64,000 bases of DNA from Paenibacillus brasilensis. GTDB taxonomy: Bacteria > Bacillota > Bacilli > Paenibacillales > Paenibacillaceae. Positions 9,270-62,206 of this stretch are shown here, one piece after another. Each line of letters starts with the position of its first letter. The first letter of the stretch is position 1. The translations under genes and the position numbers were made by a program. The notes under the pieces were generated by a model. It had not been told where the DNA came from. It searched no databases and worked only from the letters and a program-made list of their open reading frames with translations. The stretch is from assembly GCF_009363115.1 (NCBI RefSeq), contig NZ_CP045298.1, positions 945,001-1,009,000 of the forward strand, written 5' to 3'.

Positions 9270-9397
9270 TTGCTTGCACCTCCTTATGTCTCAGACTCGC
9301 CTAATAGCAGGTGGCAGATTCCCTTGGGATACTGCACTTCAGTACCTGATTGGAGCGGTTACAGCATGTGCAGCCAATCTTACGCATCACACATACC
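9270..9397 (-). ncRNA. Candidate L21 leader RNA (autoregulatory 5' UTR of rplU)
   Basis: The 5' UTR from the predicted start near 9396 to rplU is about 127 nt, long for a ribosomal operon, and contains short complementary segments. L21 leader structures are known before rplU in Firmicutes. I could not fold it against the family model, so the assignment rests on position and length. Confidence 0.55.
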
Positions 9398-12578: not shown

Positions 12579-12614
12579 GACACTTAAATAAGATTAATCA
12601 CTTATTTAAGTGTC
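12579..12614. repeat. Perfect 14-bp inverted repeat, 8-nt loop
   Basis: GACACTTAAATAAG and CTTATTTAAGTGTC are exact reverse complements separated by ATTAATCA. The stem is AT-rich and followed on the minus strand by a weak T-rich tract (TTTGCTTTATCTTG). It could be an auxiliary terminator for minD or a protein-binding dyad. Confidence 0.8.
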
Positions 12615-12631: not shown

Positions 12632-12667
12632 GCATGGCTTTAAAAAGCCTGAAAATCTTCGCCATGC
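12632..12667 (-). terminator. Probable terminator after minD
   Basis: GCATGGC pairs with GCCATGC around a 22-nt interior; on the minus strand TATCTTTTTATTT follows. It is a plausible end for the mre-min transcript, about 200 nt beyond minD. Confidence 0.55.
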
Positions 12668-12865
12668 CTTTCACTACATCCTCCTGAAGGGGACACGCAG
12701 GAAGGGGCGGAGTGGGGGATTTGAATCTGGAGAAGCGAAGCGTTCGCCTTTGCCTGTGAATTCCAACCATTTACGGTTTCAACAATCAGCGGAATTCAGA
12801 GACAACAGCGATCGTAAGATCAAATCACACGCGGAGCGTCTCCCAACTAAAACTCATGGTTTTAC

Positions 12866-13663
12866 TCATCCACCCATACCAAAAAATTTCTTAAAGCGTG
12901 TCATTACGCTTTTCTTTTGATCCATCTGCATGAGGGGTACCGTATCGCCCAAAATCCGTCTCGCAATGTTGCGGTAGGCAATCGCTGCTTGTGAATCTGG
13001 ATTCATGACAGTAGGTTCCCCTGTATTGGCTGCTTTGATGACCATTTCATCATCAGGAACGATCCCAATGAGGTCTATGCTAAGCACTTGTAAAATCCCA
13101 TCAATATCCAGCATATCCCCAGATTTAACCATGCTGTTGCGAATACGGTTAACCACCAGCTTGGGTGAAGTCACATGTGAACTTTCCAGCAAACCAATGA
13201 CCCGGTCAGCATCGCGTACGGCAGCATTTTCCGGGGTAGTTACAACAATGGCCTGATCCGCCCCGGCAATGGCATTTTTGAAGCCTTGCTCAATACCCGC
13301 AGGGCAGTCAATCAATATATATTCAAAATCCTTTTTAAGCTCCAAAATAATATCCTTAACCTGCTCAGGCGTAACAGCACTCTTGTCCTTAGTTTGAGCG
13401 GCAGGCAGCATGTACAGCTCCTCAAAGCGCTTATCCTTGACCAAAGCCTGATTTAAACGGCAACGACCTTCGGCTACATCAACAAGATCATAAATAATCC
13501 GATTTTCCAGACCCATTACCACGTCCAGATTACGCAAACCGATATCGGTATCCACCAGGCACACCTTTTTGCCGAGCAGTGCAAGCGCTGTTCCTATATT
13601 GGCTGACGTCGTCGTTTTACCGACGCCGCCTTTTCCTGAAGTGACGACGATAGCCTCTCCCAT
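12866..13663 (-). CDS. minD: Septum site-determining ATPase MinD
   Basis: A ParA-type membrane ATPase that places MinC at the poles to block aberrant division. The 265-aa protein has the deviant Walker A KGGVGKTTTSANIG (residues 10-23), the switch/Walker B region LIDCPAGIEQG, and the C-terminal amphipathic membrane-targeting helix MTRFKKFFGMGG. It lies 3 nt after minC and ends the mreB-C-D-minC-D series, the B. subtilis order. Confidence 0.97.
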   Translation of the reverse strand: MGEAIVVTSGKGGVGKTTTSANIGTALALLGKKVCLVDTDIGLRNLDVVMGLENRIIYDLVDVAEGRCRLNQALVKDKRFEELYMLPAAQTKDKSAVTPEQVKDIILELKKDFEYILIDCPAGIEQGFKNAIAGADQAIVVTTPENAAVRDADRVIGLLESSHVTSPKLVVNRIRNSMVKSGDMLDIDGILQVLSIDLIGIVPDDEMVIKAANTGEPTVMNPDSQAAIAYRNIARRILGDTVPLMQMDQKKSVMTRFKKFFGMGG

Positions 13664-25593: not shown

Positions 25594-25907
25594 AAATAAA
25601 AAAAGCCCTTCATCCTCAAAGGACGAAAGGCTGTTCTTTCGCGGTACCACCTTTGTTTCACCCCTCGTGTATGTATCCACTGATCCATTACACATGGTGT
25701 GACACTTTATGCAGATAACGGTTGCGGACCGGCCTTATTCTACCGTGAACCTCGTACCTTCCGTTGGAATGACATGAGGAACCGTTCAAACAGGCGACTC
25801 CCGGGTGACTTCGGCCAGTAGCTTCCTGCGGAACCTCACAGCGCTGCAATTCCACTCTCTGAAGGGCTTGCTGCCTACTCTTCCCGATCTCAGTCTTTCA
25901 ATAGCTA
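25594..25907 (-). promoter_or_regulatory. T-box riboswitch (valine) before valS
   Basis: The minus strand carries the T-box core AGGTGGTACCGCG (25652-25640), whose bulge can pair with the tRNA acceptor end. It is followed by a terminator stem (AGCCTTTCGTCC against GGATGAAGGGCT) and T7 ending near 25594. Stem I contains the AGAGAG-type motif and a GAA-GTC-A segment; GUC at 25809-25807 would be the valine specifier codon, matching the downstream gene. The specifier is inferred from sequence and not folded. Confidence 0.93.
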
Positions 25908-48984: not shown

Positions 48985-49058
<74 letters not shown>

Positions 49059-61915: not shown

Positions 61916-62023
61916 CTGGAGAGGTTAAAGGCACGAAAAAATAAAACCCTTTTGTGCAGGTTCTGGGCCACTACATAGCTTAAAATAGCTATAAAAAAGT
62001 AGGGCACTCCCTGTCACAGGTTA

Positions 62024-62206
62024 TTCGCGTCTCTGTCCTTTTGCCTGAGAGTTTAAGCAGATGTTCTCTGCGGTGCACCTTCGGCGCCCAATTAAGGGTC
62101 TCTCCAGAGTTCTGTCCGTTTACGGTCCCGCTTGCTGTAATCAGCCAAGCACCTGAGAGTTTTGCCCCTTCGGTCGGAACTTTCGTTCCATCTCCCGCAA
62201 ACATCA
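62024..62206 (-). promoter_or_regulatory. Tandem glycine riboswitch
   Basis: Two consecutive aptamers on the minus strand: the first (about 62198-62097) contains GGGAGA, CCGAAGGGGCAAAACTCTCA and GGACAGAACTCTGGAGAGAC; after a short linker the second (about 62091-62025) contains GCGCCGAAGGTGCACC, AAACTCTCAGGCAAAAGGAC and AGAG. These match the conserved core of both halves of the gcvT-type element. It precedes an alanine/glycine symporter and not the glycine cleavage operon. Confidence 0.95.

Follow-up and report, generated by a model that had tools for sequence, protein, structure and literature searches.

A candidate MITE-like folded repeat of the Paenibacillales beside minD in Paenibacillus brasilensis

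Introduction

Bacterial MITEs such as ERIC, Bcr1, RUP, NEMIS, EFAR, and Nezha are described in PMC3733652 and PMC10969869 as elements of about 70–300 bp without coding capacity that form a stable stem-loop, carry inverted-repeat ends, and occur in dozens of dispersed intergenic copies beside genes. REP and REPIN sequences, which go with RAYT, are likewise palindromes dispersed outside genes, and PMC3733652 gives REPs a length of 20–40 bp. MRSC-65-2, a "mobile/repeat sequence candidate" in PMC11109978, is a single long stem that covaries strongly and is present dozens of times in a genome; it is reported to contain a UYCCGG repeat and to occur in diverse phyla. For one Paenibacillus, PMC5670726 gives a list of 27 intergenic small RNAs. 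The word Paenibacillus is absent from the accessible text of PMC11109978, PMC3733652, and PMC10969869, and our literature search, which covered sources in part, returned no description or name of the repeat reported here.

This repeat lies beside minD in the window, by which we mean a 64,000-nt stretch of Paenibacillus brasilensis contig NZ_CP045298.1 (945,001–1,009,000). Its size (a core of about 135 nt, or about 185–220 nt with outer arms), its 52 or more places in the genome, its stem-loop, and its apparent lack of coding capacity as judged from the ORF listing are those of a MITE of 70–300 bp in multiple copies, and inverted-repeat ends (about 15–30 bp in MITEs) are common to one subfamily and lost in the window copy. 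Unlike those MITEs, it is spread through an entire order with a conserved internal motif, its outer arms vary between subfamilies and often between copies, its helix arms often differ as matched pairs at orthologous loci, and no parent IS was found for it. From MRSC-65-2, which it resembles in stem, covariation, and copy number, it appears to differ in its GCGNAGCG motifs and in its range, which in our samples was one order. We rejected identity with REP/RAYT systems because of the REP length given above and because a search for RAYT (Y1_Tnp, PF01797) gave 0 matches in the present genome, with a control search positive in 5 of 14 genomes. From the comparisons below, we consider it somewhat more likely than not that an old palindromic element of Paenibacillales, MITE-like and non-autonomous, survives in this block as a decayed copy.

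Results and discussion

The copy beside minD

The initial annotation had singled out a block at 12690–12850 by its composition, and its G+C is indeed 0.52, whereas the intergenic DNA on either side has 0.38 (0.47 over the window). Better limits for this block are those of the conserved core (Table 1). Two self-complementary stretches had been pointed out within it, and both belong to the family fold: GAATTCC at 12758–12764 and GGAATTC at 12791–12797 pair at the upper end of P4, the conserved apical helix, and GCGAA-GCG-TTCGC, which locally forms a hairpin, falls within the conserved GCG-N(1-3)-GCG side loop and helix P3 of the family consensus. The remark that the window holds only one copy was also right, a second model match at 12741–12814(−) being the antisense reading of the copy at 12705–12839(+). 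ORFs of 54 and 56 aa in the ORF listing cross the block, and indels separate the copies in alignment A1. The gene on the far side, on the same strand as minD, had been called spoIVFA; we do not adopt this name because its product matches the M23 peptidase domain (Pfam PF01551) and, below threshold, SpoIIQ. The window copy retains 32 of the 35 model pairs, and its folding energy taken by itself is mildly unusual only (z −1.96 on the + strand, −1.81 on the − strand). The convincing evidence for the block is copy number and covariation, not the folding energy of a single copy.

Table 1. Features of the repeat beside minD and of its surroundings, in window coordinates
Feature	Coordinates	Strand	Basis or remark
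Conserved structured core of repeat	12705..12839	+	R1 match 130.6 bits over model 1-136; blastn copies; alignment A1
Helix P1 5' side, GC-GGA-GTG, one side of GNA/GNA 3x3 internal loop	12707..12714	+	Partner 12830-12837; supporting pairs 3-150, 4-149, 8-145, 9-144, 10-143
Helix P2 5' side	12716..12728	+	Partner 12817-12828; one mismatch in window copy; pairs 13-141 to 25-130, double changes in 8/9
Conserved GAAGCG-N(1-3)-GCG side loop	12732..12742	+	Invariant columns in A1
Helix P3 5' side	12741..12747	+	Partner 12808-12814
Helix P4 5' side, apical, copy-specific sequence	12750..12764	+	Pairs 59-118 to 73-104; two mismatches in window copy
Apical loop, semi-conserved AACC at start	12765..12790	+	Alignment A1
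Helix P4 3' side	12791..12805	+	Covariation and consensus fold
3' sides of P3, P2, P1 and second GNA of internal loop	12808..12839	+	Covariation and consensus fold
Probable 3' outer-arm remnant	12840..12865	+	Orthologue alignment; poor pairing of window copy's own flanks
Separate perfect 14-bp hairpin, terminator-like, between element and next gene	12579..12614		Inverted-repeat search
minD (context, outside element)	12866..13663	-	TIGR01968 402.6 bits; stop codon 26 nt from core 3' end

A conserved fold with covariation

The guess of a folded RNA is borne out as far as the fold itself is concerned. Helix P1 stands at the foot and is separated from P2 by a symmetrical GNA/GNA internal loop; a conserved GAAGCG-N(1-3)-GCG side loop and P3 follow, and at the top is P4, which is copy-specific and often has AACC at the start of its loop. 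GNA/GNA loops form sheared pairs. Among 24 distinct copies from the genome itself, standard pairs occupy 96.1% of 839 cells, compared with 79.4% in shuffled alignments; sliding the partners leaves 45.5% at most. The search for compensatory changes that the initial annotation had suggested gave double-sided changes at 24 of 35 pairs and 137 such cells compared with 38.3 in shuffles; none of 500 shuffles matched the observed paired cells, double changes, or covariation score. The contrast is weaker for further pair types (49 compared with 43.2 shuffled, reached by 8 of 500 shuffles). In one copy (L012:1918-2064), a GTTCGC repeat is expanded at the side loop.

Copy number and spread

The block is multi-copy. 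With 12650–12900 as query, blastn returned 30 matches in the genome itself at E<=0.001, and a covariance model, R1 (136 positions, 35 pairs), was built from 24 of these copies (alignment A1). R1 gave 57 matches, 5 of which are antisense self-matches to the inner part of counted copies, leaving 52 places, of which 44 span 110 nt or more and 8 are short forms (68–83 nt); this is a lower bound, 150 of 1651 candidates having been scored. With 11 candidates scored per genome, R1 detected the element in 249 of 295 genomes sampled from the family (13 of 19 genera) and in 239 of 296 sampled from the order (31 of 48 genera). A class-wide draw found it in 9 of 121 genomes, all nine from the window's own family; the 20 genomes listed among the 112 without a match are all marked "same class." Scanning named genomes with a 21-base motif gave at least 118 stretches, and among the 80 matches listed, 77 are from Paenibacillus and the remaining 3 from Gorillibacterium, Fontibacillus, and Saccharibacillus. 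The block had been likened to a dispersed repeat of P. polymyxa-type genomes; a dispersed repeat it is, but the restriction to the P. polymyxa type falls with its presence in 31 of the 48 genera sampled from the order. The possibility had also been raised of a block that was single-copy, unconserved, and untranscribed, of which the first two are contradicted by the copy number and by conservation across the order.

Rfam 15 has no family at gathering level over the element in the window. For 11 copy-bearing loci searched at E<=5, the sole outcome was two mir-7445 matches beside the L002 copy, which we do not take for the element since they adjoin the copy and fit a 23-bp palindromic hairpin there. 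With one copy from the genome itself as query, blastn matched no phage record and 2 plasmid records, both from P. cellulosilyticus. A 17-base motif occurs in 29 viral contigs, 7 of which contain the element by covariance model; the other 22 are taken as chance matches.

In several prophage-like contigs, a copy adjoins a phage holin gene, assigned by PF05105 in L328 and L048 and by eye in L325, L329, L342, and L343. Tandem copies in the same orientation occur in L047 and L082, two of those in L082 being equal in score and length. In the genome itself, adjacent copies several times form pairs in which the 5' ends point toward each other: 1747014(−)/1747406(+), 3546338(−)/3546825(+), 3560808(−)/3561312(+), and 2874037(−)/2875634(+).

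Arms, subfamilies, and modules

Beyond the core, the 60-nt upstream and downstream flanks of the same copy are complementary, with a mean duplex energy of −23.0 kcal/mol compared with −15.6 kcal/mol for mismatched partners in the genome itself (n=45) and −25.5 compared with −18.4 kcal/mol in other genomes (n=56); in both sets, 0 of 1000 permutations reach the pairing of own partners. In the genome itself, 24 of 45 copies are in the top tenth for pairing of their own flanks, and the window copy ranks about 37th of 45. Its orthologues in G323 and G006 keep matching arms, in which a 9-nt 3' stretch pairs with a 5' arm that is absent from the window copy (by eye). This arm has therefore been lost from the window copy, which is probably no longer mobile.

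Members of one subfamily have inverted-repeat ends in common around TATAAG(C/T)TGAACT, with the end consensus (by eye) CTATATAAG(C/T)TGAACT...AGTTCA(A/G)CTTATATAG. Four members measure 185–186 bp end to end (the L153/L027 site being counted once), and L215 and L286 have the same inverted repeats within different flanks. Most copies in the genome itself, including that of the window, are without the shared inverted repeat, and the flanks of the other copies are complementary but copy-specific. A short form with an identical internal deletion stands at three different loci (L100, L101, and L103), as would be expected if the deletion came first and copying later. Seven copies, four in the genome itself (L097, L099, L102, L030) and three in relatives (L157, L160, L170), carry an additional hairpin module of about 39 nt, inserted at a common position between P3 and P4, and the element is therefore modular.

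Filled and empty sites

At site B (position 2875634 of the genome itself), the element is present in G000, G004, and G006, and the AT-rich site is empty in G321, G014, G323, and G325 (six relatives aligned). The flanks of an empty site (G323) and a filled one (G006) are 93–94% identical, and the copies in G004 and G006 are both internally deleted. A TATATA-like sequence stands at both ends of the filled form, but since target and element end are both TATATA-like, a duplication is inseparable from the end of the element. The L153 site is filled in G000 and G324 and lacks the element in 8 of 8 others aligned, the filled and empty flanks aligning uncleanly. What look like absences at site A and at site 2 of L136 are partial deletions in which arms remain. 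The minD locus, for which 14 genomes were fetched and 11 aligned (G254, G008, and G075 being left out), has a full element in G000, G323, and G006, a 5'-truncated one in G004, remnants in G007 and G296, and no recognizable element in G321, G325, G014, G015, and G324, a series that shows every stage of loss.

The MITE-like interpretation is favored by these filled and empty sites, the short form at three loci, and the same ends within different flanks; by the high copy number, the lack of a consistent gene orientation, and the lack of an Rfam family; and by four covarying helices with flanks that pair best with their own partner. The element looks like a small passive mobile element that keeps its folded shape while its letters change. 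If so, a transposase acting in trans would recognize the folded or inverted-repeat ends, insertion would take place into AT-rich intergenic DNA near the ends of genes, and copies could exchange internal modules by recombination or hairpin template switching, keeping both arms complementary. Where the hairpin falls within the mRNA of a neighbor, it would probably affect processing or stability.

Against this interpretation count the ambiguous target duplication, the partial deletions at site A and site 2 of L136, the uncleanly aligned flanks at the L153 site, the absence of a shared inverted repeat from most copies in the genome itself, and the fact that no autonomous partner was found. An inverted-repeat search of the genome itself for such an element gave 41 matches compared with 28 in a reversed control, and those of the excess that were inspected are solo or truncated ends; among 350 records there were two wide inverted-repeat pairs (L146, L177) with no transposase-like ORF inside by eye. 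Recurrent flanking genes of about 450–490 aa are ordinary (MnmE and MiaB by NCBIfam, others by eye). Persistence at the minD, jag-mnmE, and miaB loci, together with the matched-arm differences there, also exceeds the needs of an inert MITE.

Strand asymmetry and the case for RNA

A second explanation, possible though not likely in our estimation, takes the repeat for a structured RNA, either an sRNA or a UTR element: selection would act on the + strand transcript, and dispersal would be secondary. Its unpaired motifs are conserved, and on the + strand, 91 cells are G-U compared with 33 A-C (99 distinct rows). G-U exceeds A-C in 47 of 102 rows and the opposite holds in 17 (sign test p 2.3e-4, treating kin copies as independent), and the methods used, RNAalifold and Infernal, slightly favor G-U. 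By helix, the ratio of G-U to A-C in the 102 rows is 22:3 in P1, 17:9 in P2, 8:13 in P3, and 44:8 in P4, P3 alone having A-C over G-U, mostly from one pair. The core is more stable as the + strand in 86 of 101 copies (38 of 44 in the genome itself, 48 of 57 in others) and as the − strand in 5 of 44 and 9 of 57, a comparison of 86 with 14 whose sign test likewise treats kin copies as independent. The core is strand-asymmetric and the arms are not, since this bias vanishes once 45-nt arms are added (24 compared with 19 of 44 in the genome itself, 30 compared with 26 of 56 in others). This loss of the difference speaks against an RNA, as does the low share of G-U (about 3% of cells), and a strand-biased mutation process could also produce the excess of G-U over A-C.

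Orientation is a further difficulty. In 102 rows, the element is sense to both neighbors in 36, antisense to both in 31, lies between convergent genes in 19 and divergent genes in 13, and has one neighbor missing in 3; context genes are the longest open frames, the rows include orthologous copies, and the full-length rows (at least 105 nt) behind these and the G-U/A-C counts include one antisense re-match (L061:1513-1650). The near equality of 36 and 31 argues against a selected transcript, and no common promoter was seen by eye among the upstream sequences listed. On the same counts, we rejected a cis-regulatory leader or riboswitch, there being no consistent gene orientation. The context fits insertion near gene ends and terminators and does not fit a single regulatory role.

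Two loci, named from NCBIfam (MnmE, MiaB), point in opposite directions. At jag-mnmE, four copies compared pairwise give 31 pair differences with both sides changed and pairing kept, 15 one-sided and kept, 7 broken by one change, and 6 broken by both, and three of the four copies differ mutually by one or two compensated P4 pairs, as selection on an RNA would have it. At miaB, five copies give 34 one-sided broken differences compared with 8 compensated, 4 one-sided and kept, and 2 broken on both sides, a pattern opposite to that of jag-mnmE that amounts to decay and tells against a selected transcript.

The asymmetry of the core could alternatively mean that a mobilizing enzyme reads the + strand hairpin itself, as ssDNA or RNA, in which case the repeat would be a new kind of folded mobile unit; we regard this as unlikely. 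If true, such an enzyme would explain the order-wide keeping of the GNA/GNA loop and GCG-N-GCG side loop, and, with outer arms and apical stem swapped as matched pairs, copies would be rewritten in place as well as moved.

Matched changes at orthologous loci

In 20 comparisons of orthologous copies, 585 pairs are the same, 78 have both sides changed and are still paired, 10 have a one-sided change with pairing kept, 24 are broken by one change, and 3 are broken by two. Orthology is established by flanks for 20 of 21 comparisons, L166 having been dropped for its opposite orientation (with L166 included, 617 pairs are the same, 78 and 11 remain paired after a two-sided or a one-sided change, and 25 and 4 are broken by one change or by two), and the comparisons leave out truncated or insert-bearing copies (L036, L157, L160, L167, L170, L174, and the second L169 copy). 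Many of the 78 matched changes are whole arms that differ together. At site 2 of L136, the P2 type common to G000, G004, and G007 differs from that of G296 and G006, whereas P4 groups G004 with G296 and G006, and this pattern is a mosaic rather than point-by-point drift. We infer that exchange takes place between copies and that some loci are under constraint; template switching inside the hairpin could also be the source of the matched-arm differences.

Carried further, this evidence would allow arm complementarity to be kept by a DNA process, either template switching in the palindrome or gene conversion, with no selection on the fold. The predominance of the 78 matched changes over one-sided and broken ones, the different combinations of P2 and P4 modules among relatives at site 2, and the nearly exclusive use of Watson-Crick pairs would all follow; the bias of G-U over A-C, the greater + strand stability of the core, and the many invariant unpaired positions of the core would not, and we hold this explanation to be distinctly unlikely. 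It is very improbable that the family consists of oversized transcription terminators, for although 21 of 50 convergent 3' neighbors end 24–41 nt from the core 3' end (the 5' end usually lying farther from a gene) and some outer arms resemble an A-run/stem/T-run, many copies lie between co-directional genes, a separate strong hairpin within 260 nt is on the 5' side in 20 of 45 copies of the genome itself compared with 7 of 45 on the 3' side, and the hairpin foot of the window copy lacks a T-run, the core being followed by ctcccaactaaaac, and has a further hairpin resembling a terminator beyond it.

Paenibacillales carry, between genes as ordinary as minD, jag-mnmE, and miaB, a structured repeat for which we found no description, and naming it would lead to a correct reading of intergenic conservation and small-RNA signals in their genomes. 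The exchange of matched arms would also offer a test of how palindromic elements keep their fold, by selection, by conversion between copies, or by template switching.

At site 1 of L136 (position 1165400 of the genome itself), compared in L166, the G004 copy has nearly the same helices in the opposite orientation and may be an in-place inversion or another copy. Elsewhere in the window, Rfam matches a T-box leader at 25616–25900(−), a glycine riboswitch at 62023–62117(−), an L21 leader at 9283–9370(−), and a tRNA at 48985–49058(+).
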